From: Bacteroidota bacterium
GTDB taxonomy: Bacteria > Bacteroidota > Bacteroidia > Palsa-965
Direction of reading: 5' to 3'
Assembly (NCBI GenBank): GCA_020402865.1
Contig: JADBYT010000001.1
Location: 186,001-250,000 of the forward strand
Length of the DNA stretch: 64,000 nt
The translations under genes and the position numbers were made by a program. Below, one piece after another: positions 8,766 through 23,200 of this stretch (positions are counted from its first letter, which is position 1; every line of letters begins with the position of its first letter). The notes below the pieces were generated by a model. That model did not search any database and was not told the DNA's origin. It was given only the letters and a program-made list of their open reading frames with translations.

Positions 8766-10148
8766 ATGATGTGCCAAATACGCGTTTATCCGGTCTTGTT
8801 TCTCATGTGGCTTGCAGGCGGTTTGTTGCAGGCGCAGACCGCGGCCCAGCGCTGGGACAGTTTAAAAGCCGTGCAGCAGCCGGTAATTCAGGCACCTTTT
8901 GCCGCCAGTTATTTTGCCCCGCAGGCCCAGCCCTTGCACAGTTACGGCTGGGAAGACGGCATTCACCTGAACCGCAGCGGCACCATGCTGTATGCGCTTT
9001 ATTCGCCGGCCGATTTGTTTTCGTGGCTTGGTTTTATGAGCGCCACCGCCGGAAATCCCAATTACACCCTTTGCGATGTGTTTGGCACCGGCGCCTATTA
9101 CCGCAGCTATGCCCCGCTTTACGGCATGGATATTACGGGCAACGCATTCGGCTGCGATACGTTTATCAATATCGACCTTGTGTATAGCCGCGTAGATGCC
9201 TCCACCGGGCTGTTCAACAACTGGCAGCTTTCGGGCATACGCACGCAGGCCGCCATAGAAGGTTCGCCCATGCCGGTGTTCAATGCCGCAAATCCCGCGC
9301 TGATTGATATTTTTCTGTTCACCCGCAACAACGACATCTGGATGATTCGTAATGCGGCCGATACGCTTTCGGGTTTTGCCTCGGCCGTGCGTCTGCCCAC
9401 ACCCATCAATCCCGATTCCACCGAGTTTCAGGCCGACAATCCGCACCTCGAACGCCTCAACGGCGATACATTGCTGCTGGTGTTTGAAAAATACACCAAC
9501 GCCGCCTTCCGCGATTTTTACTACACACTCAGCAACGACGATGGTGTAACGTGGAGCGCACCGCAACTCATTACCACCGTTTCGGCAGCAGCAGGCCACA
9601 TTGAGCATCCGCACGTTTGGCGGCAACCCAACAACGGCCCGTGGACATTCTGGTACTCGCTCGATTACGATATCTGGCGCGCTGTGCAAACCGTTCCGGG
9701 CAACTGGGACAGCTGGGGCAACCATGCCATGGTGGTGAGCAAAGGCACAACGGCTTCCATTGGCGAGCCTGTGCTGGATGCGGCGGGCAATCTTTCGTTT
9801 GCTGTAGGCTACGCATTCCCGCAGCCCGGCGATTCAACTGATGTGGTGGATGTTGACCCGTGGGTGGCACGCATTATTCCCAATGCAGTTGCAGAAACGG
9901 CGTTGCCCGCGCTCAGTGTGTGGCCCAATCCGGCACAGGCGTTTTCGCAGCTGCTGGTTACCTGCCCCGCGCCCGATTCCGATGTGCAGTTTACGCTCAC
10001 CGATGTAAGCGGGCGTGTGCAGGCGGTGTCTGCTGTGCCGCTTGGCGCGGGTCGTTTTCAGTTGTATGTGGATCTGGCGCCGGGGGTGTATGTGCTTTCG
10101 GTGGGGGGCGGGGGTGTGTGGGTGTCGGAGCGTGTGGTGGTTTGGTAG
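8766..10148 (+). CDS. Secreted BNR/propeller-type protein with type A T9SS sorting domain
   Basis: The 460-residue protein has a signal peptide ending about LLQAQ (residue 24). The body contains an Asp-box-like motif (SNDDGVTWSAP, about residues 255-265) and several blade-like segments, suggesting a sialidase-fold beta-propeller, though no catalytic set is evident. The C-terminal about 80 residues (LSVWPNPAQAFSQLLV to the end) are a type A sorting domain. MMCQ gives two adjacent ATG starts. Its 3' end is the left border of the cassette array, and a degenerate copy of that end occurs at 21751-21906. Confidence 0.75.
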   Translation: MMCQIRVYPVLFLMWLAGGLLQAQTAAQRWDSLKAVQQPVIQAPFAASYFAPQAQPLHSYGWEDGIHLNRSGTMLYALYSPADLFSWLGFMSATAGNPNYTLCDVFGTGAYYRSYAPLYGMDITGNAFGCDTFINIDLVYSRVDASTGLFNNWQLSGIRTQAAIEGSPMPVFNAANPALIDIFLFTRNNDIWMIRNAADTLSGFASAVRLPTPINPDSTEFQADNPHLERLNGDTLLLVFEKYTNAAFRDFYYTLSNDDGVTWSAPQLITTVSAAAGHIEHPHVWRQPNNGPWTFWYSLDYDIWRAVQTVPGNWDSWGNHAMVVSKGTTASIGEPVLDAAGNLSFAVGYAFPQPGDSTDVVDVDPWVARIIPNAVAETALPALSVWPNPAQAFSQLLVTCPAPDSDVQFTLTDVSGRVQAVSAVPLGAGRFQLYVDLAPGVYVLSVGGGGVWVSERVVVW

Positions 10149-10155
10149 GGGGAGA

Positions 10156-10289
10156 TTGTAACGAGCGGCGGCTTTGCGTTCGGGCGGGATTTTTAGCACT
10201 ACACTCGATACGGAGCACCACAGTTAAAATATAGCAAAAAGCGTCAGACGAAGCACTGAACCCCGCCTGACGCAAAGCCGCTGTTGGCC
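10156..10289 (-). repeat. attC-like site A (distal end of array)
   Basis: Imperfect palindrome of 134 bp. On + the left core is TTGTAAC and the right core GTTGGCC. The inner arms GGCTTTGCGTTCGGGCGGG and CCCCGCCTGACGCAAAGCC pair, with unpaired bases on one arm, as in attC sites. Its right core (ACGGCCAAC on -) matches, with one mismatch, the complement of the core at 11982-11988 that starts the same cassette. It touches the 3' end of the T9SS gene at 10148. Confidence 0.75.
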
Positions 10290-10305
10290 GTAGCCGTTCG
10301 TTGTT

Positions 10306-10659
10306 TTATTTCGCCTTTCGTTTCTTGAATGATTTTGCAACTTTATTGTATTCAAGGCATAAGTTTAAGAAAAATTCAAAGTCTTTTCTGTCTTTAAACC
10401 CGTCAGGATTTATATAGCAGTAACCTTTGTATTCTTTGCCTTTCATTAACATTGTCTCGTAACCCTCTTTTTCGTAAAGTTCTTCCTGTCGGCTTGGGTC
10501 AAAGCGTAACATCAATTTTTCATCGCTTACACAAACACAAGTCTTTCCGTTTACCATAAAGTTTAGAACATTGAACATTAGTTTTTCTTCAATGTCTATT
10601 TCCGGTATTTCGGCAAGATATTCTCTAACTCTGTCAGCAAGATTTGTGTCGTAAGCCAT
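10306..10659 (-). CDS. TfoX N-terminal-like domain protein
   Basis: A 117-residue protein with MFNVLNFMVNGKTCVCVSDEKLMLRFDP near residues 28-55, matching the TfoX/Sxy N-terminal domain pattern (MFGG.aFMvnGkm..gv....l..R). It is the last gene of the distal cassette; its stop lies 17 bases before the right core of site A. Solo TfoX-N proteins are common cargo of unknown role, so a link to competence should not be assumed. It lies 9 bases after the VOC gene, so both are probably co-transcribed on the - strand. Confidence 0.75.
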   Translation of the reverse strand: MAYDTNLADRVREYLAEIPEIDIEEKLMFNVLNFMVNGKTCVCVSDEKLMLRFDPSRQEELYEKEGYETMLMKGKEYKGYCYINPDGFKDRKDFEFFLNLCLEYNKVAKSFKKRKAK

Positions 10660-10668
10660 AAATGAAAT

Positions 10669-11043
10669 TTATTTACGAGAATGAAGGCCTACTGTATTGC
10701 CTTCCGTGTCAATGAAAATTGAGATGAAACCAAATTCACCAATATTCATTTTAGGTTGTACAACTTTTCCACCTGATGCTTCAATTCTTTGTTCTTCTGC
10801 AATATTGTCTTCGGTTTCAAAATAGACAACCGTATTATTGCTGCTCGGAACAAAATCGGCTTTCTCCACCAATGCCCCTGAAATATCGTGGCTTTCAGGG
10901 CTGAAAGGGAAAAATGATTGTTTGCCCCATTCAATGGGTGCATCTGTCAGCTTTAAATTGAAAACTGTTTCGTAGAACTTTTTTGCGCGGTCTAAATTTG
11001 CCACATTGATGTCAAACCAACCAACTGGATTTACATTTGCCAT
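10669..11043 (-). CDS. VOC-fold (glyoxalase/bleomycin-resistance-like) protein
   Basis: A 124-residue protein starting MANVNPVGWFDINVANLDRAKKFYETVF, the usual opening of a VOC-fold protein, with VVYFETEDNIAEEQRIEASGGKVVQPKMNIGEFGFISIFIDTEGNTVGLHS as the second half. One paired beta-alpha-beta-beta-beta unit set is present; a dimer would form the metal site. The substrate cannot be told. The start at 11043 is preferred to 11070 because the extra residues are Lys/His-rich and non-conserved. It sits between a TfoX-like gene and an AraC regulator in the distal cassette. Confidence 0.8.
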   Translation of the reverse strand: MANVNPVGWFDINVANLDRAKKFYETVFNLKLTDAPIEWGKQSFFPFSPESHDISGALVEKADFVPSSNNTVVYFETEDNIAEEQRIEASGGKVVQPKMNIGEFGFISIFIDTEGNTVGLHSRK

Positions 11044-11128
11044 TTTACTATGATTTTTATGTTTTTGCACGATTGCGATGCAAAGGTAGAATCACCCTAA
11101 GTGGCAAAATTGTAAAAATGGGACAAGG

Positions 11129-11953
11129 CTATTTTTTGTCAAAAATCAACGACATTTTAAGGTTGTCTCCGAAAAACTCTTTTGGTGTTAAACCTGTAAA
11201 TTCCTTGAATTCTTTTATAAAATGTGCCTGGTCAAAATATTCGTTTTCATAAGCCAGGTCAGTTAGACTTGTAATGTCTTCATTCAACAATACTTTCAAA
11301 GTCGTTTGAATTCTAATTGTCTTGGCGAGTTGCTTCGGGCTTAATCCTATAGCTGAAGAAAATTTCCGAGCTAATTGTCTTCGGTTTATGTTATTGCTTT
11401 CTGAAAATTCATTTACAGAAAACCGGCCATTTCTGTTGAAAATAGTCTCAACTGTTGATTTTACGATATTGTCAATAGTTTTTTTATTGGTTAATTGTTT
11501 GAAAAGAAATGCCTCTATAATTTGAATTCTTTCAGGCGTAGAGTTTGCATTTAATATTTGTTCACCAAGCTTTTTGCCGTCTTCTCCAAATAATATATCC
11601 AATCGTACAGCTTTGTTTTCCATCTCCTTAATTGGGATTGACGAGAAAGGCAAAAATCCATTAGGCTTAAATTGAACAACAAAACTGCCCGTTACGCCAA
11701 CCGGCTCAATCACATAAGGTTTTGTCAATTGTCCGATTAAAAAGCATTTTGGTAAAATTGTTATTTCACCATTTTGAGAATGATGTTTGTAAGTGTCACC
11801 GTAGTGAAATATTAATTTCATTGTTCCGTCTGGCACAATGGTGTTTTTGAGAGGTATATTTTCCTTTTCACCGTCTAATGTCCAATATCGTTTGACAAAC
11901 TCTGTCAGTTCGATATTTGGTTCATATGTTTTCGGGTTTAATTCCATTGTCAA
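11129..11953 (-). CDS. AraC-family transcriptional regulator
   Basis: A 274-residue protein. Residues 1 to about 165 form the N-terminal sensing region seen in DUF6597-type regulators (YWTLDGEKENIPLKNTIVPDGTMKLIFHYGD). Residues about 170-270 form the AraC double helix-turn-helix, with NNINRRQLARKFSSAIGLSPKQLAKTIRIQ and LAYENEYFDQAHFIKEFKEFTGLTPKEFF. It is the first gene of the distal cassette, 29 bases after the cassette core, and probably regulates the VOC and TfoX-like genes behind it. A second regulator of similar design is at 16405-17232 in another cassette. Confidence 0.88.
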   Translation of the reverse strand: MTMELNPKTYEPNIELTEFVKRYWTLDGEKENIPLKNTIVPDGTMKLIFHYGDTYKHHSQNGEITILPKCFLIGQLTKPYVIEPVGVTGSFVVQFKPNGFLPFSSIPIKEMENKAVRLDILFGEDGKKLGEQILNANSTPERIQIIEAFLFKQLTNKKTIDNIVKSTVETIFNRNGRFSVNEFSESNNINRRQLARKFSSAIGLSPKQLAKTIRIQTTLKVLLNEDITSLTDLAYENEYFDQAHFIKEFKEFTGLTPKEFFGDNLKMSLIFDKK

Positions 11954-11981
11954 TTTTTGTACGGTGTCTTTTTACAAAGAC

Positions 11982-12113
11982 GGCTAACGGTTTGCAGCTT
12001 TGCGAAGGGCGGGACTTTTACGACAAAACTTGATTTGAAAAACTAATGTTTGATTAACCACCAAACTGTCTTTGAAACACGAAACCCCGCCTTTTGGGCA
12101 GGTGCTGTTAGGC
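11982..12113 (-). repeat. attC-like site B
   Basis: A 132-bp imperfect palindrome with + cores GGCTAAC (11982-11988) and GTTAGGC (12107-12113). Arms include GCTTTGCGAAGGGCGGGAC and CCCCGCCTTTTGGGCAG. Its right core is the exact complement of the core at 14996-15002, which starts the same cassette. The stop of the bestrophin gene lies 6 bases to the right. Confidence 0.82.
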
Positions 12114-12119
12114 GTGGTT

Positions 12120-13022
12120 TTATTTCAGTTTGTCGCATACTTCATTGCAGTTTTGTTCTATTGTCTTACAAATTTCGTCTATGGTTACAGATGTTTTGTT
12201 TTCTGAAAATGGCTCTCCAAACAAATTCGCAAGTTTGTTTATTGTCAAAAAGGCTGTGCTGATGATAACCATTATTGGAACAGCCAAAAACTCAAAACCA
12301 CTTTCTTCACCACCTAAGTCAATGTCACCGATAAACAATGGAATAAGTATTACATAGAAGCTCACTATTAATTTAGTGAATGCGCTATAAATCATTAGGA
12401 ATGGTGTATTCTTTATTCTTTCTGCTTTTCCTTGAATGTCAAAAAAACGGTTGATGTGTTGCATCAAATCTCCTTTTTCAATTCGTGCTATTGGTGCAAA
12501 ATCATCTTCAATTTCTTTGGTGATGGCCAATAAAATTTCATTTGAAATTTTATTATCAGTGTTGATTTTAAAGTCTGATATTAGTTCGATAGATTGGTTG
12601 TCAAATGTTGGATGTAAGTTGTTCTGCATTTCATTTTTTAGCTGTCTAATATATAAAATGCTTAATCCTATGATTTTACGCCCTTTAAGGCTTAGATTAT
12701 TTTGTTTGGTTTCTTTGAAATGTTGTTCATTTCCATAGTAGGCATAAATTTTAGCAACAAAGCTTCGTGTATTGTTTGTCAATTCACCAAATATTTTCCT
12801 TGCTTCCCACCATCTGTCATACGCAGAGTTCATCCTGAAACCAAGGAAGAAAGCCACAGCTAGACCAAATACCGAACCTATTTGTCCAGATATTTTGTAA
12901 ATGTGGTCACCGAAATATTCTTCAAGAGCCAGCACAAAAATTGTATAAACCGTTGTAATTATAATAAACGGTGTTGCAATTTTTAGCAGGTGAAGTAAAC
13001 CTTGCTTTTCTGTTTTTATCAT
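12120..13022 (-). CDS. Bestrophin-family membrane channel
   Basis: A 300-residue membrane protein with the bestrophin signature FRMNSAYDRWWEARKIFGEL (about residues 61-80) after two N-terminal transmembrane segments, and two more near residues 205-265. Bestrophins form pentameric anion or cation channels; plant thylakoid members feed bicarbonate to carbonic anhydrase. Here it is the last gene of a four-gene cassette that also encodes a beta-carbonic anhydrase, which makes a role in bicarbonate or pH balance plausible but unproven. It starts 2 bases after the DUF2231-like gene ends. Confidence 0.87.
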   Translation of the reverse strand: MIKTEKQGLLHLLKIATPFIIITTVYTIFVLALEEYFGDHIYKISGQIGSVFGLAVAFFLGFRMNSAYDRWWEARKIFGELTNNTRSFVAKIYAYYGNEQHFKETKQNNLSLKGRKIIGLSILYIRQLKNEMQNNLHPTFDNQSIELISDFKINTDNKISNEILLAITKEIEDDFAPIARIEKGDLMQHINRFFDIQGKAERIKNTPFLMIYSAFTKLIVSFYVILIPLFIGDIDLGGEESGFEFLAVPIMVIISTAFLTINKLANLFGEPFSENKTSVTIDEICKTIEQNCNEVCDKLK

Positions 13023-13024
13023 TA

Positions 13025-13519
13025 TTAATCGTCTTCGTCTTTTTCAGCGTTATTATTGTCAGTCGCAGGGACACTATTACTGCTTCTTATTTCGGTGTGT
13101 CTTATTTCACCGCCAGTTGTACCTGTCTGTTTAGCAAAGAATAATACTACAAATGCGAAAATCAATGTTGCAATTGAAATTATTGAAGAAAAAGATTTTT
13201 GTTTAAAGCTAGTCCAAAGTCCTAGCAAAGAAATGCCACCGAGAATGTAAGAAAGTATAGCGAATGTTTCTGCTGTTTCTTCGTGGGTTTCTATGAAGTT
13301 TTCAGTAACTCCATTTATGTTTTCTACTACTTCTTCAGCACCTTCACCTGTATTCATAGCTGCTATCGCGGTTAATGCACCAAGAATAAAAATCATAAAT
13401 GCCGTCCGATTCACAGCTTCTGATTTTGAAATAAGTCCTGTAATCATTACGATTACTCCCACGATAGGGAAAATGATGGGAAAATGATTTACCACTAAAT
13501 GCCAATGTGCCCCGTTCAT
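13025..13519 (-). CDS. DUF2231-like membrane protein
   Basis: A 164-residue protein with four or five transmembrane segments, opening MNGAHWHLVVNHFPIIFPIVG. The His-containing start (HWHLVVNHFPI) matches the H.hP..v.fPi pattern of DUF2231 membrane proteins, which have conserved histidines of unknown role. The C-terminus is polar and acidic (NNNAEKDEDD). It lies between the VIT1-like and bestrophin genes with gaps of 15 and 2 bases, so it is translated from the same message. Confidence 0.7.
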   Translation of the reverse strand: MNGAHWHLVVNHFPIIFPIVGVIVMITGLISKSEAVNRTAFMIFILGALTAIAAMNTGEGAEEVVENINGVTENFIETHEETAETFAILSYILGGISLLGLWTSFKQKSFSSIISIATLIFAFVVLFFAKQTGTTGGEIRHTEIRSSNSVPATDNNNAEKDEDD

Positions 13520-13534
13520 ATTTTATTTTTTGAA

Positions 13535-14236
13535 TTAAATGTTTACTCCAAATAGGTAACCAACTAACGCAGAAAGCACCATTGCAATTGTTCCCCAAAT
13601 TGTAATTCGCAAGATAGCTTTTTTAATACTTGAACCACCTGTTTTCGCAGATGTGGCTCCTAAAATGACGAGAAAAATTATTGTAAAACCATACAACCAA
13701 TATTCCATTCCTTTAATGGGTGCAAAAAGAGCAACTAAAAGCGGTAATACACCACCAACAGTAAAAGATGCTCCTGATGCTAAAGCAGCTTGTATTGGAT
13801 TTGCTTGACTTATTTCGTTGATACCTAATTCGTCTCTAATATGAGTTCCTAATGCATCTTTTTCGGTTAGTTCAATTGCTACCTGCATAGCTGTTTCTTT
13901 TTTCAGTCCACGTTTCTCATAGATTTGAGCCAAAATATTAAGTTCTTCATTTGGCATTTCCTTAAGTTCTTTAATCTCTCTTTCAATGTCTGCTTTTTCG
14001 GTGTCTGTTTGAGAACTTACAGAAACATATTCACCCGCTGCCATAGATAAAGCACCAGCAACAAGTCCAGCGACTGTTGCTAAAACAATCGGCTCTCTTG
14101 TCGAACTTGCAGCAGCTACCCCAATAGCAAGACTTGAAATTGAAATTATACCGTCATTTGCACCAAGAACAGCAGCTCTCAACCAGTTGCTTCTGTGTAT
14201 GTAATGGCTGTCTAAATAGTTGTCGATTGTTATCAT
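13535..14236 (-). CDS. VIT1/CCC1-family metal transporter
   Basis: A 233-residue protein with WLRAAVLGANDGIISISSLAIGVAAAS near residues 18-44 and GLVAGALSMAAGEYVSVSSQTDTEKADIEREIKEL near 57-90, both typical of the vacuolar iron transporter family. A charged cytosolic helical domain (about 78-150) and three further membrane segments follow. Family members move Fe(II) or Mn(II) against protons. It is the second gene of the four-gene cassette, between carbonic anhydrase and the DUF2231-like protein. Length is normal and no key region is missing. Confidence 0.9.
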   Translation of the reverse strand: MITIDNYLDSHYIHRSNWLRAAVLGANDGIISISSLAIGVAAASSTREPIVLATVAGLVAGALSMAAGEYVSVSSQTDTEKADIEREIKELKEMPNEELNILAQIYEKRGLKKETAMQVAIELTEKDALGTHIRDELGINEISQANPIQAALASGASFTVGGVLPLLVALFAPIKGMEYWLYGFTIIFLVILGATSAKTGGSSIKKAILRITIWGTIAMVLSALVGYLFGVNI

Positions 14237-14282
14237 AATGAAATAGTATAATTATATCTGTTTTATCTTTTAAATTAGCGGT

Positions 14283-14930
14283 TTAAAGGTCGTCAAACTC
14301 ATAAAGTGGGTCCATATAGTCCTTATATGTCATTGTATATATTTTTTTAATAAGACCATCTTGCAAACTGTAAACCCAACCGTGGATTGATGGAATTTGA
14401 TGTTTTTTCCAAGAACGCTGAACAATACTGGTTTTGGCTAAATTCATTACTTGCTCTTCAACATTAAGTTCTATTAATTTATTTAATCTATCTTCTGGTT
14501 TCGTTTGAAAATCAATTGTGTTTCTATGGTTTTTATAAACATCTTTAATATTTCTAATCCATTTGTTAATTAGGTCATAGTCGTGTCTGCTCATTGCCGC
14601 CTTAACTCCGCTACAGCCATAGTGTCCGCATACTATAATGTGTTTAACTTTAAGATGGTCAACAGCATATTCTAACACAGCCAATAAATTCATATCAGTA
14701 TGAATAACCATATTTGCTATGTTTCGATGAACAAAAATTTCACCTGGCTGTGTTCCTGTTATTCTGTCAGCAGGTACTCTGCTGTCGCTGCAACCTATCC
14801 ATAAAAATTCAGGTTTTTGAACGTCTGCTAACCTAGCAAAATACTCAGGATCATCCTTAATTACATCAGATGCCCAGTGTTTATTATTCTCTATGAGTTT
14901 ATCAATACTACTTATTTCTTCAGCTTTCAT
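14283..14930 (-). CDS. Beta-class carbonic anhydrase
   Basis: A 215-residue protein with the beta-CA zinc site: Cys47 in GCSDSRVPA (with Asp49-Arg51), and His103 and Cys106 in CGHYGCSGV. It interconverts CO2 and bicarbonate. Length is normal for the family and no signal peptide is seen, so it is cytosolic. It is the first gene of the four-gene cassette, 66 bases after the core at 14996-15002. Together with a bestrophin channel it could serve inorganic carbon or pH handling. Confidence 0.93.
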   Translation of the reverse strand: MKAEEISSIDKLIENNKHWASDVIKDDPEYFARLADVQKPEFLWIGCSDSRVPADRITGTQPGEIFVHRNIANMVIHTDMNLLAVLEYAVDHLKVKHIIVCGHYGCSGVKAAMSRHDYDLINKWIRNIKDVYKNHRNTIDFQTKPEDRLNKLIELNVEEQVMNLAKTSIVQRSWKKHQIPSIHGWVYSLQDGLIKKIYTMTYKDYMDPLYEFDDL

Positions 14931-14995
14931 TTTTTAATCCTGTTGGTGGTACTATTTTCAAAAAAGTTTAGTCGCCCGTGTTATTTTAAAATTAT

Positions 14996-15127
14996 GCCTA
15001 ACGGTTTGCAGATTTTCGATGGACGTGTTTTTTACCGCCAATGTTGATGCGGAGAACTGAACTTTCTGTAACCACAAAAGTTTCAAGCATAGACGAAACC
15101 CCGCCTATTGCCAATGTGCTGTAATGG
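14996..15127 (-). repeat. attC-like site C
   Basis: A 132-bp imperfect palindrome, + cores GCCTAAC (14996-15002) and GTAATGG (15121-15127, the latter with T to A in the invariant GTT). Arms include CGGTTTGCAG on the left and AACCCCGCCTATTGCCAATG on the right. Its right core differs by one base from the complement of the core at 15481-15487 that starts the same small cassette, so this cassette may have lost mobility. Confidence 0.78.
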
Positions 15128-15137
15128 GCTGCATTTC

Positions 15138-15480
15138 TTATCATTCTATAAAATTTAGTTGTCTCGCCAAGTCAACATTTGTCGTAACGAGCAGGTTGTC
15201 CATTAATGGAAAAATTTCAGTTTCTTCGTCACGATTAAATTCAGAAGCACTTAAAATAATTGTCTATCCGTTTTCCGTTTTGATCTCAATTGTCTGCGGA
15301 TATGTTGTATAAACTTTATTTGGGCTGTCAAGATTTGAAGTCCAGGTCTCTTCCCATATTATTTTGAAGTCGACTATTTTTTGTCCGATGATTTCAGTCC
15401 ACTTTGCTTCTGATGAAACGTCCCATTTCTGTTCGTAGTCATTTGTACTTTCTGTAAGGTCAAGCAGCTTTGATTGTAGC
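15138..15480 (-). pseudogene. Broken small cassette gene, unknown function
   Basis: One reading frame runs from about 15480 to a TGA at 15138-15140, interrupted by an in-frame TAG at 15264-15266. Before the stop it reads KLLDLTESTNDYEQKWD... to TIEIKTENG; after it, TIILSASEFNRDEETEIFPLMDNLLVTTNVDLARQL. The continuity of the two halves and the cassette boundary show a single gene with a nonsense change. No in-frame ATG exists inside the cassette, so the 5' end may also be damaged; the only upstream ATG in this frame lies inside site D. Family unknown. Confidence 0.6.
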
Positions 15481-15654
15481 CCATAACGTTTTCGGGCTAC
15501 GCGCGGTGCGGAATAAATAACCACAAAACTCTCTTAACCGAAAACCTTTATTAAATATACTGAACTTAATGGCAAATGCAAAAAATATTCTGCTGCTGAA
15601 AAAATACATTTGCAACTTGCACAAGCTCCGCATTGCGTGTAGCTTGTGTTGGTG
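15481..15654 (-). repeat. attC-like site D (long form)
   Basis: At 174 bp this is the longest well-kept site. + cores are CCATAAC (15481-15487) and GTTGGTG (15648-15654). Paired arms are CGGGCTACGCGCGGTGCGG and CTCCGCATTGCGTGTAGCTTG. The right core plus flank (GCCACCAAC on -) is the exact complement of the start of the same cassette at 17388-17396. Confidence 0.75.
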
Positions 15655-15659
15655 GCAGT

Positions 15660-16337
15660 TTATTTTGCTATTAGTTTGAATATGTTTTTTCTAGTTAATA
15701 CAAATATTAATGTTACTGTAATTGTCCAAACGGTTACCAGAACTGGTGAACCGAAAATCCAATTTTTGCTCAATACTCCCATTGCTAGCAATGTATTCAT
15801 ACCTAATAGAACTATCAATATGTCAAAAATAAATGGCAATAGTAAAAACATTAAAAACCATCCGATTTTATGCCTGTTTTCAATCAGTCTGTATGCTTTT
15901 ATGAGAGGAAAAGCTACAATAAGTATAATCAAAATCAAAACGATAATCCTCGATAAATCCCAGTTATCAATAAATGTATCAGCCACCACCACTTCGTCTC
16001 CACCGCCAAATATTGGATTTAATATTCTTCCAAAGGGCATGTTAGCAAATATCAATGAAAAACCTAAAGCTTTTTGGTTTTGGTTATTATTATCCAAAAG
16101 AAAACTTCCAAACCAAATCATTACAAATGTAAATACTGGTCCTGCGATAGTTGAAAATATTCCATATGGATTTGTTTCACAGCTATCGCAAAGTCCCCAA
16201 ACATTAAAATCTCTTTGACCCCAACATCCGCAAATTAAACGTCCAACAGAAGTGTGAACTATTTCATGTGCTTCGTGCATCATAAAAGTCAGAGCTAAAA
16301 ATGTCAATACATATTGGAATGTTAATTTTATTTTCAT
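15660..16337 (-). CDS. Membrane protein with HEIVH motif, possible intramembrane zinc protease
   Basis: A 225-residue protein with about five membrane segments. Near residues 21-27 it reads HEAHEIVH, which contains the zinc-peptidase motif HExxH (HEIVH) at the end of the first hydrophobic segment, as in M50-type site-2 proteases. A Cys-rich loop follows (CGCWGQRDFNVWGLCDSC). A second-half motif such as NPxxDG is not evident, so peptidase activity is uncertain. The stop lies 6 bases from the right core of site D, and the gene shares a cassette with the AraC regulator at 16405, which may control it. Confidence 0.55.
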   Translation of the reverse strand: MKIKLTFQYVLTFLALTFMMHEAHEIVHTSVGRLICGCWGQRDFNVWGLCDSCETNPYGIFSTIAGPVFTFVMIWFGSFLLDNNNQNQKALGFSLIFANMPFGRILNPIFGGGDEVVVADTFIDNWDLSRIIVLILIILIVAFPLIKAYRLIENRHKIGWFLMFLLLPFIFDILIVLLGMNTLLAMGVLSKNWIFGSPVLVTVWTITVTLIFVLTRKNIFKLIAK

Positions 16338-16404
16338 AGTCAGTTATTTTAATCGACTACAAATTTGGCAAATTGAATACTGATAAAATTGTAAAAGATT
16401 TACC

Positions 16405-17232
16405 TTAACTATATATCCAATGAATATTACTGCCTTCAATCGTTTTTAGATCTTTAAAGAAAGCCTTTGGTGTGAATCCAGTTAATGATTTAAAATCGCC
16501 TACCATATGCGATTGGTCAAAGAATTCAATTATATAACTTAATTCGGACAATTTGGTATTTTGATTGGACTGATGTTTTACTGATAAGGCATTTCTGAAG
16601 CGAAGGATTTTCTTATACTCTGAGGGTGTTTTGCATAAATGTTTTTTGAAATGTGATATTAGTGTCTTTTGGCTTACTTTACACTCTTCTGCTAAATCAG
16701 ATGTTTTGATATTATAATTTTCTTGAATTAGATGAATGGCATTGTATAAAAAAGGATGTTCAAATCCAATAATTTTAGTTGCCCAATAGGCCTCTAATTC
16801 TTGAGCTAATAAAGCTTTGTCTTCTATTTTCAATATTTCGCTCATAGATTTTTCATAATCCAAAAAAGGTACAAAAGAATCATAATAACTAGTGCTATAA
16901 GTTTCCAGTGATTTTTCTAAAAAAGCATTAAGACCTAAAGGTTTAAAATAGATGCAGATTTCTTTTATGTCTCCTTCATATTGAAAGCAAATAGGCTTAT
17001 TAAATCTACAAACCAAGCCGGTATTTATAGATTTCGACTTGGAAAATTTGGTAATAATTTTTTTTGAAGTTATTATGCTTTCCGAATTTAGTTCTACTGA
17101 TACAAATGTAATAATGGAAGGAAATGTTAAATAACTGACTTTCTTTTCATTTCGAGAATGTTCCAAAATGTAAAAACTGTCAATGTATCTTTGAAGCTCT
17201 TTGTTTTGTGGTTTGAACGTTTTAATTTGCAT
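16405..17232 (-). CDS. AraC-family transcriptional regulator
   Basis: A 275-residue protein. The first about 165 residues form a variable sensing region. From about residue 175 the AraC double helix-turn-helix is clear: IKTSDLAEECKVSQKTLISHFKKHLCKTPSEYKKILRFR and LSYIIEFFDQSHMVGDFKSLTGFTPKAFF. It reads into the HEIVH membrane protein gene 67 bases downstream on the same cassette. About 155 bases separate its start from the cassette core at 17388, enough for a promoter of its own. Confidence 0.87.
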   Translation of the reverse strand: MQIKTFKPQNKELQRYIDSFYILEHSRNEKKVSYLTFPSIITFVSVELNSESIITSKKIITKFSKSKSINTGLVCRFNKPICFQYEGDIKEICIYFKPLGLNAFLEKSLETYSTSYYDSFVPFLDYEKSMSEILKIEDKALLAQELEAYWATKIIGFEHPFLYNAIHLIQENYNIKTSDLAEECKVSQKTLISHFKKHLCKTPSEYKKILRFRNALSVKHQSNQNTKLSELSYIIEFFDQSHMVGDFKSLTGFTPKAFFKDLKTIEGSNIHWIYS

Positions 17233-17387
17233 GCAATTGCTAAGTTATTGAGTTTGTTTTGTGACACTAACTGACGTTTTGTTTAATGTTTGATTCCGTT
17301 GTTTATAGGCTTTATTTGGAGTATAAATTCTCCCTTTTTCTAATCCTTAACTTCGGAGATCGTGGAGTGAGTCTAAGAGTGAATTGC

Positions 17388-17518
17388 CACCAACGTTTTC
17401 GGGCTTTGCGTTGGTGGGCTTTTGAAACCGTAAACTGTCTGCCAGCACCAAAGTTAATTAATTGCTAAAATGTTTCTATTCGTACTGTCCGCCCACTAAC
17501 GCAAAACCCGTGTTAGGC
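17388..17518 (-). repeat. attC-like site E
   Basis: A 131-bp imperfect palindrome, + cores CACCAAC and GTTAGGC. Arms are CGGGCTTTGCGTTGGTGGGC and GCCCACTAACGCAAAACCCG. The right core extended (GTGCCTAAC on -) is the exact complement of the start of the same cassette at 18199-18207 on +. The stop codon of the gene at 17513 lies inside the core, a hallmark of gene cassettes. Confidence 0.85.
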
Positions 17519-18172
17519 ACAGTTATTATATTTCTGTAGTAGTTCGTCAAAGTTTATTTTTTCCGTTTCTAAATGTCCCGATGCTCCATGTGTTTTCATA
17601 AAATTCCATTTTGCTTTCTTGTCAATTTTCACTGGCTGAACTTTTTCACTTAACGGGTAAATCTGTCTGCCAACGAGTTTGAAAAAGCTGTCCTCGTATA
17701 TTTCAAAGTCTAAGCATGGGAACTTTTTATTTAAATTGTATTCAGTGTCCCACATATATAAAACTTCGTTGTCGTTAAGCTCAACAATATACAAGTCGCT
17801 TTCATCTTCATATTCTGGTGCTATTGCAATACGTTTGGTGTTAACTAGGCAAGTGTCAACCGTCCCTTTCTCTATAGCTGAACTTAGTTGTCGTAAAAAT
17901 AATTTATGTCTGTTTTTCTGTTTGTAGATTTCGTAAGGCCCAAAAACAATAAACGAAAAGGCGAAAACAGCAATTGTCCCGAAAAGAAACGTCCAAAAAC
18001 TGTCTGGAATTATAGTCGTAATATATGTCAAACCTGCTCCTAAAAGTCCAGCAATAAGAAAATGATAGAACTTAATTTTACTACTTGTTTCCTTTTCTTT
18101 CTGCGTTTTCAATGTCTTTAATATTCGCAACTCGTCAGGGTGAAAATTTCTTGTCGTATAAGCAATGTTCAT
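17513..18172 (-). CDS. Cassette-borne protein with two membrane segments, unknown
   Basis: A 219-residue protein with a charged N-terminus, two adjacent hydrophobic segments (FYHFLIAGLLGAGLTYITTI and FWTFLFGTIAVFAFSFIVFG, about residues 35-78) and a polar C-terminal domain of about 135 residues rich in Asp/Glu. No family recognised. The start is 27 bases from the cassette core and the stop codon lies within site E, so the gene nearly fills its cassette. The first promoter upstream is the array promoter at 20511-20540, unless the cassette has its own. Confidence 0.75.
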   Translation of the reverse strand: MNIAYTTRNFHPDELRILKTLKTQKEKETSSKIKFYHFLIAGLLGAGLTYITTIIPDSFWTFLFGTIAVFAFSFIVFGPYEIYKQKNRHKLFLRQLSSAIEKGTVDTCLVNTKRIAIAPEYEDESDLYIVELNDNEVLYMWDTEYNLNKKFPCLDFEIYEDSFFKLVGRQIYPLSEKVQPVKIDKKAKWNFMKTHGASGHLETEKINFDELLQKYNNCA

Positions 18173-18198
18173 TGTTATGGTGTCTGTCTTATAATTGT

Positions 18199-18330
18199 GC
18201 CTAACGGTTTGCAGCTTGGCGAAGTGGCGGATTTAGAAGTGCTTAGTTTCAATTTAGCACAAATGTTTATTAGAAATCCGAATGTTCAATTTAGCACTGA
18301 ACCCGCCATTTTGCCAAACTGCTGTTGTGC
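18199..18330 (-). repeat. attC-like site F
   Basis: A 132-bp imperfect palindrome, + cores GCCTAAC and GTTGTGC. Arms are GGTTTGCAGCTTGGCGAAG and CCATTTTGCCAAACTGC, with AGTGCT/AGCACT repeats nearer the loop. The right core CGCACAAC (-) is the exact complement of the start of the same cassette at 19440-19447. Confidence 0.85.
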
Positions 18331-18341
18331 GTTCGTATTTC

Positions 18342-19412
18342 TTAAAATTGCTTTTCAAAAGCCTTTTCGTTAAACTTAAATATATTTCCGTCTGCCATTC
18401 CAAAAAACAAATTGTTTTTGTTGTCTTTATAAATAGTCCAAATCATTGGGTTAGATAGTTTGTTACTAATTGAATAGTTTGTCAAAGTTTTACCGTCAAA
18501 TTGCCAAGCTCCTGTATATAAATCTCCAAACCAAATATTGCCTTCCGAATCTTCTTCAATAGCAAAAGGGTGTTCCAATGTGCCTGGTTCTGATTTATTT
18601 CCATTTCTTTTACTTGTTGGATGAATTAAGTGATGCTTTTCAGAAAAATTAATTGTTGAATTACCTTCTATAAGCAAAACGCCAATTCCATTATTTCCTA
18701 TCCAAATTCGTCCTTTTGAATCTGCTAATACACTTCTTATATGCAAACGCTCATTATCTTTTAGGTTTAATTTTTCTTTATCAAAGATATTTACCATTTT
18801 ACCATCATAGTTAAATAGCGCTGCATAAGTTGCAATCCATACTTTACCGTCTTTATCTTTTGATATACCCGTAACACCATAAGTATTGTCAGAATTATCA
18901 GCATTTTTATTTTTAGGTTTTGGGAAAATCAAATAGTTCATATTTATTCCGTCAAAACGATTTATTCCGTCTTCCGCACCCGCATTAAACCATAAATCTC
19001 CATTGGTTTTATTCCAATCAAATATTGGGTTGTTATTTATAGATGGATAATTAGTAAACTTTCCTTTGTCATATACACTAACTCCTCTTGCAGTTCCAAA
19101 CCAAATTTTTCCATTATTGTCTTCTTGGATTGAACGGATTTGATTGTCTGCTAACCCTTCATTTGTTGTAAAGTATTCAAATGATTTTCCATTATATAAA
19201 CTTACGCCTTCGTTATGGCTTCCAAACCAATAATTACCTTTACTGTCCTGAAAGATAGCACGTATTCCAGAAGTAAATTTTAAGGTGTCGGTTTTTGAAG
19301 TTACTACCAATTCGGGCTTATCAGTTTCTTTTTCTGTTGATTTCTTTTCAATACAAGAAAAGTTTAAGGTCAATAATAGTAGTATGTAAATCATTTTCAA
19401 TTTTTTGTTCAT
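18342..19412 (-). CDS. Lipoprotein with two-component-regulator-type propeller repeats
   Basis: A 356-residue protein with a signal peptide and lipobox LNFSC (Cys at about residue 20). From residue 48 on it consists of Reg_prop repeats of the pattern I.qDskGnyWFGt..gVs.ydG..f (SKGNYWFGSHNEGVSLYNG, NNGKIWFGTARGVSVYDKG, SEGNIWFGDLYTGAWQFDG). These blades build the periplasmic sensor propeller of hybrid two-component proteins, but no kinase or membrane domain follows, so it is a stand-alone propeller, probably in the periplasm or on the outer membrane. It is the only gene of cassette 2. Confidence 0.85.
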   Translation of the reverse strand: MNKKLKMIYILLLLTLNFSCIEKKSTEKETDKPELVVTSKTDTLKFTSGIRAIFQDSKGNYWFGSHNEGVSLYNGKSFEYFTTNEGLADNQIRSIQEDNNGKIWFGTARGVSVYDKGKFTNYPSINNNPIFDWNKTNGDLWFNAGAEDGINRFDGINMNYLIFPKPKNKNADNSDNTYGVTGISKDKDGKVWIATYAALFNYDGKMVNIFDKEKLNLKDNERLHIRSVLADSKGRIWIGNNGIGVLLIEGNSTINFSEKHHLIHPTSKRNGNKSEPGTLEHPFAIEEDSEGNIWFGDLYTGAWQFDGKTLTNYSISNKLSNPMIWTIYKDNKNNLFFGMADGNIFKFNEKAFEKQF

Positions 19413-19440
19413 TGTCTATTTCGTGTTTTTCTAATATGAC

Positions 19441-19573
19441 GCACAACGTTTTCGGGCTTTGCGTTCGGGCGGGATTTCGAAGCACAAAGTTTCAATATAT
19501 TACTAAAGTTCATTAGAAGCACAATGCTCCAAGTTTGCACGTCACCCCGCCTGACGCAAAACCCGTGTTATGC
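19441..19573 (-). repeat. attC-like site G (first cassette)
   Basis: A 133-bp imperfect palindrome, + cores GCACAAC and GTTATGC. Arms are CGGGCTTTGCGTTCGGGCGGG (one extra base relative to its partner) and CCCCGCCTGACGCAAAACCCG. The extended right core GTGCATAAC (-) is the exact complement of the cassette start at 20499-20507. The arms are nearly the same as those of site A at the far end of the array. Confidence 0.87.
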
Positions 19574-19586
19574 ACAGCCATTCTTG

Positions 19587-20489
19587 TCATTTGAGGTAGA
19601 AATATTCTTGAAACACCCATTTGTCACAGTTTTCAGGAATTAAGTTTGTTTTATACTTCTGTTTAGTTACCCACTCGCTAACTTGTTGTTCCCAATTTTT
19701 ATCTTCTTTGTTGTCCACGCTTGTTCTTATCATAAAAATTTCGCAATTGCCTTTCTTATCAATTGTCCCGTAAACCATAATGTAATATTTGCAGTCTGAA
19801 TATTCTTTTACTTCTGTCCTGTTTAGTCCTTTAATTAAACTTTCTCTAAATTTATTTCCCGTAATTAGGTCAGGAAATAAATAGCCTTCAGGATATTTAA
19901 TGTCACGATAGTATTTTGTCTGAGGTTCTGGAATTTTCGTAATACTATCCCACTTTTTAAAATCTGCTTTTTTATGTCGGTTGATTATTTTTCCTGTCAA
20001 CAACTCAATACAAACAATCTTATCTTCAAGAGTATTAATGTATAATGTGTCATTGGTAACATTCATTGTCTTATACCACAAAGTATGTGAACTTGTTTGT
20101 TGAAGTTTACTTTTGTCTGTTACCAAATCGTCTATGAAATATGTAATTGAACTTTTTCCGTTAATGAAAATTTCTATCAACTCCTGTTTCTCAAAGTCTG
20201 AATGCCCCCACATCCAATAGGTCGTTGTAACTAAAGTCTTCCCTGTGTTACTGATAAATGCTTCTGTTGGTAAGTAGTTGTCAATTTTGTAAAGTTCTTT
20301 TTTGCTTTTACTATCATAAACAATGGTCTTCCCAAAATTTGTCAAGTCGTAATTGTAAAATGGGATTGATTTGAAATAAAATTTCTCGTCTTCGGAGTAT
20401 CTGTCATACTGATATGCGGGTCCTGGTAAGTCAGCCTTAACTGTCAAACTGCAAAAAATGGTCAATATGAATATTATTGCTCGTGTCAT
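19587..20489 (-). CDS. Secreted protein of unknown function, first cassette
   Basis: A 300-residue protein starting at the ATG at 20489, 12 bases inside the cassette core. The signal peptide is MTRAIIFILTIFCSLTVKA. The frame stays open upstream to 20561 but that part would cross the recombination core, so I reject it. The body has beta-rich segments; the last about 90 residues (YIMVYGTIDKKGNCEIFMIRTS...) loosely resemble a TonB C-terminal-like fold, a weak guess. As the first cassette it is the gene best served by the promoter at 20511-20540. Confidence 0.7.
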   Translation of the reverse strand: MTRAIIFILTIFCSLTVKADLPGPAYQYDRYSEDEKFYFKSIPFYNYDLTNFGKTIVYDSKSKKELYKIDNYLPTEAFISNTGKTLVTTTYWMWGHSDFEKQELIEIFINGKSSITYFIDDLVTDKSKLQQTSSHTLWYKTMNVTNDTLYINTLEDKIVCIELLTGKIINRHKKADFKKWDSITKIPEPQTKYYRDIKYPEGYLFPDLITGNKFRESLIKGLNRTEVKEYSDCKYYIMVYGTIDKKGNCEIFMIRTSVDNKEDKNWEQQVSEWVTKQKYKTNLIPENCDKWVFQEYFYLK

Positions 20490-20500
20490 TCTATGGTTGT

Positions 20501-20507
20501 GCATAAC
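20501..20507 (-). other. attI-like recombination core
   Basis: GTTATGC on the - strand (GCATAAC on +) marks the boundary between the recombinase side and cassette 1. The complementary core ends the same cassette at 19567-19573. The strand break would be expected between G and TT. No palindromic partner is seen on the recombinase side, as expected for attI rather than attC. The call rests on position and core complementarity. Confidence 0.65.
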
Positions 20508-20510
20508 TTT

Positions 20511-20540
20511 CAAATATACGCAATTATTCCATTTTTCAAA
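20511..20540 (-). promoter_or_regulatory. Cassette promoter (Pc-like), Bacteroidota consensus
   Basis: On the - strand TTTG (20540-20537) is followed after 18 bases by TATATTTG (20518-20511), an exact match to the Bacteroidota -33/-7 consensus TTTG and TAnnTTTG with near-standard spacing. Transcription would begin at about the recombination core and read into cassette 1 and the array. This mirrors the Pc promoter of known integrons. Confidence 0.7.
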
Positions 20541-20608: not shown

Positions 20609-20657
20609 TATTGCGCATAATGAATATCTAATTTGAGGATATACAAAATGCGCAATA
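20609..20657 (+). promoter_or_regulatory. Inverted repeat over the recombinase start codon
   Basis: TATTGCGCAT (20609-20618) and ATGCGCAATA (20648-20657) are perfect complements. Inside them GAATATC (20622-20628) and GATATAC (20638-20644) pair with one mismatch. In RNA this would fold the AGGA at 20636-20639 and the ATG at 20648 into a hairpin and could restrain translation; as DNA it could be a regulator or recombinase binding site. Confidence 0.55.
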
Positions 20658-21718
20658 GCTGGAATTCTTATTCATTCACATTTGGAAGCCATAAGGGGCT
20701 ATCCGTGATTTGGATTTCATTTCCTAAGGATAATTTGCTGATTGCACATTTGAAAGAACATACCCGGCCGGTTTGGAGCCAAAGCAAAAAAATGTGGTAC
20801 GTAAATAACAGTCCTCAACACCGGAAATTATTTCAATTAGAGGATCAGCCTTCAGGAAAGGAAGTGTTATCCCAAATTGCATCTGTTAACTTAGCGGCTT
20901 TTCAGCGTTTTAAAGAGCAACTCCTGCTTAAAGGATACAGCCAGCACACAATACGTACCTATTCCATTGAGTTTGCCCAATTACTTTATGTGCTAAAAAA
21001 ATATCCTGTTGATAAACTTACTTCCGAGCGATTGCGGGCCTATTTCTTGTATTGCATACAGGAATTACAAATGAAAGAAAACCATTTGCATAGCCGTATC
21101 AATGCAATTAAGTTTTATTTCGAACAAGTGCTCCGGCGTGAGAAGTTCTTCTTAGAAATTCCACGACCTAAGAAACCGAGTTCCTTGCCTAAAGTACTGG
21201 ATATGGATGATGTGAAAAAGATATTATCGCTAACAGAGAATATCAAACATCGGGTAATGCTGAAGCTCTGTTACGGTATGGGCTTGCGGGTAAGTGAAAT
21301 TGTAAATCTGAGAATTTCAGATATTGACAGTAAGCGTATGCAGGTGATGGTTGTAAGTGCCAAAGGGAAGAAAGACCGTTATGTAAATTTGCCCCGGTCT
21401 ATATTGGGTGAACTTCGTGAGTATTTTATTACTTACAAACCCAAAGATTTTCTTTTTGAAGGAATGTATGGCGGACAATATAGTGTGAGGAGCGTGCAGG
21501 CGGTGTTTAAACAGGCCATGAAGAAGGCGCGGATAAGGAAGAAGATAGGCATACATAGTTTACGACACAGTTATGCCACACATTTACTGGAACAGGGAAC
21601 AGATATTCGCCTTATTCAGGAACTGCTTGGACATAACGATATTCGAACCACTGAAATATACACGCACGTTAGCAAGAAAAGCCAGGGCAATGTAAAAAGT
21701 CCTTTGGATGCGATGTAG
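20648..21718 (+). CDS. Tyrosine recombinase, IntI-like, without the IntI-specific domain
   Basis: A 356-residue protein. I chose the ATG at 20648 (AGGA 8 bases upstream) over the TTG at 20633. Residues 1-70 form an N-terminal extension with PVWSQSKKMWYV, seen in Bacteroidota integrases. Residues about 75-170 are the SAM-like core-binding domain. The catalytic domain has Arg214 (GLRVSE), Lys239, His303 and Arg306 (HSLRH), His329 (LLGH) and Tyr338 (IYTH), so it should be active. The tail GNVKSPLDAM resembles the IntI tail. Between Lys239 and His303 there are only 64 residues, too few for the extra helix domain of integron integrases. It lies divergent to the cassette array. Confidence 0.88.
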   Translation: MRNSWNSYSFTFGSHKGLSVIWISFPKDNLLIAHLKEHTRPVWSQSKKMWYVNNSPQHRKLFQLEDQPSGKEVLSQIASVNLAAFQRFKEQLLLKGYSQHTIRTYSIEFAQLLYVLKKYPVDKLTSERLRAYFLYCIQELQMKENHLHSRINAIKFYFEQVLRREKFFLEIPRPKKPSSLPKVLDMDDVKKILSLTENIKHRVMLKLCYGMGLRVSEIVNLRISDIDSKRMQVMVVSAKGKKDRYVNLPRSILGELREYFITYKPKDFLFEGMYGGQYSVRSVQAVFKQAMKKARIRKKIGIHSLRHSYATHLLEQGTDIRLIQELLGHNDIRTTEIYTHVSKKSQGNVKSPLDAM

Positions 21719-21750: not shown

Positions 21751-21906
21751 CTGCCCGATGCCGATGCACAGTTTACGCACACCAATGTAAGCGGGTGTAT
21801 GCAGGCGGCGTCTGCTATGTCGTTTGGCGCGGGTCGTTTTCAGTTAAATTTGGATGTGGCGCCGGGGGTGTGTAGGTTACGGAGCGGGTGGTGGTTTGGT
21901 AGGGGG
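21751..21906 (+). pseudogene. Degenerate copy of the 3' end of the T9SS gene at 8766-10148
   Basis: This stretch matches 9962-10151 (the C-terminal sorting domain and the bases after the stop) over most of its length, for instance GGCGCGGGTCGTTTTCAGTT and GTGGTGGTTTGGTAGGGGG in both. There are many point changes and one deletion of about 28 bases. It is not translatable as a sorting domain. Like the original, it runs directly into an attC-like site. Confidence 0.8.
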
Positions 21907-21913
21907 GGGACGG

Positions 21914-22097
21914 GTTGTAGATTTGCGATGGGCAGAAATTGAAAAACTTTCAGCTCGTTAAGGTAGTTTTGTAAAGTTAAATAGTTAAAGTGAAATTTTG
22001 TTGTTGGGCAATATCAGTCAAGCTTAGAAACACAGTTGCCGCATCTACCAAAGTTGAGAGTTGTGCTTCAGTTCGCATAACGCCCACCCTGTTGGCG
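21914..22097 (-). repeat. Degenerate attC-like site J
   Basis: The left end TTGTAGATTTGCGATGGGCAG resembles the left arms of sites A and C, and the right core is GTTGGCG (22091-22097). The complement of the right core matches, with changes, the start of the same cassette at 23070-23076. At 184 bp it is longer than the main class and its arms pair poorly, so it is probably inactive. Confidence 0.45.
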
Positions 22098-22107
22098 GCA
22101 TATGCTA

Positions 22108-23031
22108 CTAAAAATAGTCATCATCGTCCTCTTCAAGTTTTTTGTCGGAACCAATTATTGAAACGTACTGTGCCCTTTCTTTGTCGAACGGAGCATCTTC
22201 GTATCTGGTTTCTAATTCCTCCAATAGAATCTGTTTAGGGTGAATGTCAGTTAAATATTTTATATATTCATTAGCTGAATGTGATTCAAATTCAATGGGC
22301 TTTATTTTATTAATAAATTCAACAAATCCATCGTCAAATTTATTTTGAAGAAATGCAATCAGTAATTCTTTGCGAAGTGTTTTCTCCCTCTCAAAAGTAA
22401 AATCTTTGGCGATAAATATTTTGTATGCTTTTGTGTCATATGTAATTTCATAAGTATAAATATTTAAGGCACTTGCTAATTCTTCAATCAAGCCGTAAAG
22501 AGTCTGAGATATTTTGCCAATTGTTCTGCCCCAAAAGTTTCTCATTCGATTATCAATCTCTGTTGAAACAGGAAGTTCCGCAAGAATTTTTGTCTTAAGA
22601 TGCTTTTCAAAAAAATCAATAAGCAAAGCCTTGCTTGAATTTTCATTATATACAGAATGAAGTCCAAATCTGTCATATCTGCTTGACTTATAGAAGTCAG
22701 ATAACATTTGCAGGAAATGAATATGCACGTCTGAAAACTTTAAAGAATGCCTTTTCTTTAATCTGTTAAATAGGTCTAGGTGATTATGAGTTATTAACGA
22801 TCTTTCAAAATCTTGTTGGTTGATGTGTTCTGTGTGTTCTGAAAGAATAATTGCTATTTTTAGAATTCGCTCAACACCGACAGAGGAATTATAAAGAAGC
22901 TCAAAACAATCTTCTTCAAAATAGAAAATATCCATTCTGTCAAAAGTATGTAGTGAGTTAAATATGAAAGATCCTGAAATTTGCAGTTCTGTCCCCAAAC
23001 GGAAATTTTTCCAAAATTCAGTCTGATTCAT
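22108..23031 (-). CDS. Helical protein of unknown function in the decayed array
   Basis: A 307-residue, mostly helical protein with an acidic tail (KKLEEDDDDYF). The segment GVERILKIAIILSEHTEH near residues 52-69, with LITHNHLDLFNRLKKR after it, has the look of HEPN-type helical bundles, but no clear Rx4-6H ribonuclease motif can be placed. No signal peptide or membrane segment. It is intact, and its stop lies about 10 bases from the right core of site J, so it is a former or present cassette gene. Function not recognised. Confidence 0.65.
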   Translation of the reverse strand: MNQTEFWKNFRLGTELQISGSFIFNSLHTFDRMDIFYFEEDCFELLYNSSVGVERILKIAIILSEHTEHINQQDFERSLITHNHLDLFNRLKKRHSLKFSDVHIHFLQMLSDFYKSSRYDRFGLHSVYNENSSKALLIDFFEKHLKTKILAELPVSTEIDNRMRNFWGRTIGKISQTLYGLIEELASALNIYTYEITYDTKAYKIFIAKDFTFEREKTLRKELLIAFLQNKFDDGFVEFINKIKPIEFESHSANEYIKYLTDIHPKQILLEELETRYEDAPFDKERAQYVSIIGSDKKLEEDDDDYF

Positions 23032-23069: not shown

Positions 23070-23200
23070 CGCCAATGTTAAAGTATTGACGTTATGGCGG
23101 AAATAGCAATGCGTCAGCAGATATAGTACAAAAGCTAGATAGCAGCACAAACTTTGAGCCTATATTCGTCAGCCGCCATAATGCCAATACAATGTTATGC
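23070..23200 (-). repeat. attC-like site I
   Basis: A palindrome of 131 bp. The arms GTATTGACGTTATGGCGG and CCGCCATAATGCCAATAC pair well. The right core GTTATGC is standard; the left core CGCCAAT has lost the final AAC (AAT instead). The left core still matches the complement of the 3' core of the neighbouring cassette at 22091-22099 with one or two changes. Confidence 0.65.

Follow-up and report, generated by a model that had tools for sequence, protein, structure and literature searches.

A candidate cassette promoter within the insertion site of an integron-like system from a Bacteroidota bacterium

Organization of the locus

The stretch of DNA analysed here (the window, 64,000 nucleotides from a Bacteroidota bacterium) carries a tyrosine recombinase gene and, divergent from it, an array of cassettes with genes on the minus strand, which are separated by seven hairpin sites (~10156-19573). 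The short region between the two, 20496-20524, is very probably the attI-like site of an integron-like cassette system, judging from its sequence and that of its relatives. The features are listed below, with the basis of each assignment in brackets.

20648..21718, plus strand: tyrosine recombinase of 356 aa, divergent from the array (N-terminal extension, SAM-like and catalytic domains)
20537..20540, minus strand: -33-like element TTTG (sequence and pattern search; enriched 17-22 nt upstream in relatives)
20514..20524, minus strand: left recombinase arm of the attI-like site, ATTGCGTATAT (cassette-right-arm matrix, found only at a 7-nt spacer)
20511..20518, minus strand: -7-like element TATATTTG (all within the left arm, 20514-20518, and the crossover spacer, 20511-20513)
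20507..20513, minus strand: 7-nt crossover spacer TTGAAAG (site alignment and arm matrix)
20505..20508, minus strand: predicted transcription start, coinciding with the crossover (from the -7 rule)
20501..20507, minus strand: core GTTATGC, crossover G20507/T20506 (mapped by the divergence of L015, L016 and L041 exactly at G/TT)
20496..20506, minus strand: right arm TTATGCACAAC, contributed by the inserted cassette (cassette-start matrix)
19587..20489, minus strand: first cassette gene (start codon 17 nt past the crossover; the core itself contains a further in-frame ATG)
19441..19573, minus strand: attC-like site 1 (folding and R' end)
18199..18330, minus strand: attC-like site 2 (folding and R' end)
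17388..17518, minus strand: attC-like site 3 (folding and R' end)
15481..15654, minus strand: attC-like site 4 (folding and R' end)
14996..15127, minus strand: attC-like site 5, with a degenerate stem (folding and R' end)
11982..12113, minus strand: attC-like site 6 (folding and R' end)
10156..10289, minus strand: attC-like site 7, the array end (folding)

The recombinase gives a Phage_integrase match of 138.6 bits and has a complete catalytic set, with R214, K239, H303, R306 and H329 invariant and Y338 nearly so among 18 relatives. An N-terminal extension of ~75 aa, which has no Pfam match, precedes the SAM-like domain. The best-scoring model is a XerA-type NCBIfam (212 bits, cut-off 220). 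TIGR02249 scores 206.5 bits against a cut-off of 265, and its match falls in two pieces. The IntI structure 2a3v also aligns in two pieces; its chain residues 206-246 are unmatched, with nothing in between in the recombinase. The IntI-specific additional domain (I2) near patch III is absent from the recombinase, and the 18 relatives have no insert there either. Filing the system as an IntI-based integron was rejected because this domain is missing. We therefore call it integron-like, and the likeness to Pc of known integrons that had been drawn in the initial annotation is to be read as an analogy.

The array has the tandem R''-L''...L'-R' inverted structure of attC sites: all seven sites fold, and the same sites are present in the arrays of relatives. 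In these hairpins the outer cores pair and the R' end, AGCYSSAAAMCGTTR, is conserved. Allowing at most one mismatch, this end occurs 44 times in 4.9 Mb, compared with 22 for a reversed control pattern. Its 11 exact matches include five in the window array, three at C4 and one at C19, where further attI sites of this genome lie. The null for the attC scan at a relaxed threshold is 1.4 hits per 10.4 kb, so that an isolated attC hit is weak evidence; the analysis was restricted to sites carrying the conserved R' end. At the attC R' junction the left side carries no normal arm, which would fit, although it does not prove, recombination of a folded single strand.

Unrelated cassettes, both in the window (20506-20485) and at 48 junctions in relatives, begin with a common motif, TTAnnnGCAAyynTAAAArAC. 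Its positions +14 to +22, which lie beyond the 10-nt arm, would form a 5' leader should the crossover be the transcription start. The gene on the left of the array has its 3' end (9971-10155) repeated immediately right of the recombinase (21753-21936), with 87% identity over 119 nt, which suggests a tandem duplication or an insertion of the whole unit. The segment 22075-23215, on the far side of the recombinase, holds a cassette-like gene (22108-23031, minus strand) and a hairpin (23090-23200), and is possibly the remnant of a second array.

Recombinase arms, crossover and cassette exchange

An arm matrix was built from 48 cassette starts (consensus TTAnnnGCAA) and slid across the platform side. 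Its mean score was above 0 only at a 7-nt spacer (+1.3), compared with less than -6.9 at every other spacing. The layout of the attI-like site is TTGCnnnTAw - 7 nt - wTAnnnGCAA, with two inverted arms that we take to resemble dif arms. A gapless alignment of 20 non-duplicate sites showed T-16, C-14, A-9 and G-1 to be invariant; conservation is highest in the columns of the recombinase arm, among them positions that are free under the promoter rule. Some left arms are weak (L024, L042, L013 and L038), and as the anchors were picked by eye these sites carry less weight. The spacer keeps T-T-R in attI, a feature not common to the attC spacer GAAAACG. The core reads GTTATGC here compared with GTTRRRY in integrons, and its later positions vary freely in the 48 junctions.

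Two inverted GCGCAT (dif-like) repeats, at 20610-20622 and 20640-20655, extend over the start codon of the recombinase and are found again in several relatives. From their sequence they are probably accessory binding sites, serving either as accessory attI sites or in autoregulation.

The initial annotation had named the GTTATGC core as the point where new cassettes enter, and a comparison of three relatives (L015, L016 and L041) bears this out. Their recombinase and upstream sequences are identical over 2,729 nt and diverge exactly after GAG/TT, with different cassettes beyond, so that cassette exchange at the attI-like site is seen by comparison of genomes. Two of the genomes belong to one family and the third to another. 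Identity across families could result from recent transfer or from contamination of draft genomes; since platforms identical over this length diverge at one breakpoint, the crossover is mapped whichever cause applies.

Homologous recombinases, 46-65% identical, are scattered sporadically across the class. No relatives were found in the viral contigs searched, the best full-length relatives in a plasmid search were only ~43% identical, and the Rfam search gave no match. The site and array lie downstream, not upstream, of the recombinase gene in L013 and L038, and also in L030, L032, L033 and L037. The genome under study has two further attI sites, L062 (C4, ~2058) and L063 (C19, ~967); both have attC-like sites after them, and no recombinase match was found nearby. 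TTGCGTATATTT is kept in all three attI sites of this genome. A single recombinase may serve several platforms in trans. GCGCAT motifs are also kept near these two integrase-less sites, upstream of both.

The promoter match at the core

Reading the minus strand from the recombinase gene to the array, the order is TTTG (20540-20537), N18 (20536-20519), TATATTTG (20518-20511), AAA and GTTATGC (20507-20501). The TTTG, the 18-nt spacer and TATATTTG are exactly as the initial annotation had described them, as direct inspection and a pattern search confirmed. With its AT-rich spacer the arrangement agrees with the sigma-ABfr rule for Bacteroides promoters, -33 TTTG and -7 TAnnTTTG, as given in excerpts of PMC7366714. 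If the 8-nt box is centred at -7, the predicted +1 is 20507/20508, beside the crossover 20507/20506 and in agreement with the start site first proposed. The promoter match is real and well placed, and it lies wholly on the constant, platform side of the crossover.

The rule TTTG-N17-22-TANNTTTG has six matches in the 64-kb window compared with 3.2 expected, and six or more are found in 12 of 100 shuffles, so that a match somewhere in the window is not unusual. The chance of a match with its start no more than 5 nt from the crossover is ~3e-4 (3.2/128,000 x 11 positions). TATATT would be present at the core anyway as recombinase arm and spacer, and given this TATATT, TTTG adds a factor of ~6% per site (1.27/20 in shuffles). 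The two halves of the match are therefore non-independent evidence. The -7 box covers five arm positions and three spacer positions, and its conserved portion, TATAT, coincides with the inner half of the left arm. As the box lies wholly inside left arm and spacer, its conservation has a recombination explanation; conservation of TATATTTG alone was rejected as proof of a promoter because the left arm accounts for it.

Other evidence does not depend on the arm. TTTG is found 17-22 nt upstream of the box at 10 of 20 sites compared with 1.27 +/- 1.10 expected, and 0 of 2000 dinucleotide shuffles reach 10, a result that overstates the significance since phylogenetic independence does not hold for all 20 sites. 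The reverse complement CAAA occurs once in the same range. Other distances at which TTTG is frequent are 10, 28-30 and 39-42 nt, so that the ~20-nt peak is not unique. Between 5 and 45 nt before the box, in 22 sites, 26 of 33 occurrences (at ~10, 20, 30 and 40 nt) keep phase with a 10.3-bp period. Phased T-tracts may thus account for part of the enrichment, and DNA curvature upstream of attI is possible. As for the host, TAnnTTTG occurs 13 times sense and five times antisense in 82 gene upstream regions of this genome, and TTTG-N17-22-TAnnTT[TG] seven times and twice, respectively. This sense-strand excess indicates that the host appears to use the -33/-7 rule. Of 22 sites, six have strict TAnnTTTG and one, the window's own, has both elements, while the -33 TTTG is absent from the C4 and C19 attI sites. 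We regard the sequence evidence for a promoter independent of the recombinase arm as moderate. The promoter reading of the initial annotation is strengthened by the TTTG enrichment and by the short cassette leaders described below, and weakened by the identity of TATAT with the arm and by the scarcity of the strict box.

On balance, the match is rather probably a Pc-like cassette promoter with transcription starting at the crossover. Another account treats the region as a recombination site only, in which TATATTTG is conserved as left arm and spacer, resembles a -7 element by chance and starts no transcript. It is favoured by the left arm, which repeats the cassette right arm in inverted orientation across a constant 7-nt spacer, by conservation that peaks on arm positions and not on promoter positions, by a full promoter at a single site of the 22, and by TCAATTAG and TCAATACG at the box in two relatives with the array downstream (L013 and L038). 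However, no arm needs the TTTG that is enriched at promoter distance, the T-T-R spacer kept in attI differs from the attC spacer, and in many cassettes the first gene starts too near the junction to leave space for a separate promoter. We consider this account unlikely.

Transcription might also come from elsewhere, namely from within the integrase gene, from upstream of 20545 or from cassette-borne promoters, with the core match contributing little. Such arrangements have precedents, as excerpts of PMC8876359 place Pc inside intI, 223-252 bp from the crossover, in class 1 integrons, and 65 bp upstream of the crossover in the chromosomal integron of V. cholerae. The distances from junction to first gene (from the crossover) in six window cassettes are 17, 34, 32, 161, 71 and 40 nt, no first gene being found in the seventh. 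The 161 and 71 nt, together with more than 100 nt in the first cassettes of some relatives, accord with cassette-borne promoters, but in four of the seven window cassettes the first gene begins 17-40 nt past the junction. Several cassettes thus have no room for their own promoter and a platform promoter would serve them; we consider a source elsewhere improbable. That the match is the promoter of the first cassette gene and not of the platform, or a functionless chance match, was already disfavoured and appears very improbable indeed: the strict pattern is hardly rare in the window (six compared with 3.2 expected), but both elements are platform-side, and this side is constant while cassettes change.

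Proposed mechanism and comparison with known systems

We propose that 20496-20540 is an attI-like insertion site that doubles as a cassette promoter. The recombinase encoded at 20648-21718 would bind the two inverted arms around the 7-nt spacer and join incoming cassettes at G20507/T20506. The main sigma factor of the host would read the platform-side TTTG/TATATTTG, and transcription would begin at, or 1-2 nt from, the first base of the last-inserted cassette, which would provide its own short 5' leader. As the -7 box overlaps left arm and spacer, the promoter would be blocked whenever the recombinase is bound; we infer that recombination and expression would be mutually exclusive. If the promoter is real, inserted genes would probably be expressed immediately. 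A shared promoter and arm would couple the insertion of a cassette to its expression in a simple way, and Bacteroidota genetics could use the site as a compact insertion-and-expression device.

Excerpts of PMC9024848 indicate that IntegronFinder 2.0 detected almost no complete integrons in Bacteroidetes, the one reported being in Salinibacter. Current models, according to excerpts of PMC7790495, tie attC recombination to the I2 helix. A cassette system that combines attC-like hairpins with a recombinase devoid of I2 would imply either another way of satisfying this requirement or a different mode of recombination for these hairpins. We tentatively suggest, as a possibility somewhat short of likely, a widespread unrecognised Bacteroidota integron-like family whose recombinase has no I2 and whose attI merges arm and -7 box. 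In such a family the crossover would be the transcription start, cassettes would be expressed from their first base, integrase binding would silence them and a single integrase would act in trans on several integrase-less platforms. In the open-licence literature, represented mostly by titles and abstracts, we found no account of a Bacteroidota system of this kind.

Several known systems share parts of this arrangement. The recombinase resembles the XerA/XerCD type, its best model being XerA-type; it differs from XerA/XerCD with dif in its ~75-aa N-terminal extension, the adjacent attC-like array and the 7-nt spacer. The Bacteroidetes sigma-ABfr promoter (excerpts of PMC7366714) is matched in both elements, with the difference that the -7 element here doubles as part of a recombinase site. 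The chromosomal integron of V. cholerae likewise has a platform-side Pc near attIA, but that promoter lies 65 bp from the crossover, is CRP-activated and belongs to a true IntI system (excerpts of PMC8876359). Pc2A of class 2 integrons lies inside attI2 and, as here, the cassette promoter is embedded in the insertion site and not in the integrase gene; Pc2A is of sigma-70 type and 192 bp upstream of the first gene, whereas the match here is of sigma-ABfr type with its predicted start at the crossover (excerpts of PMC8876359). Since Pc2A and the V. cholerae promoter are known inside or beside attI, the principle is not new; the novelty here, judged from the sequence, lies in the type of promoter, in a predicted start that coincides with the crossover, and in the host system.
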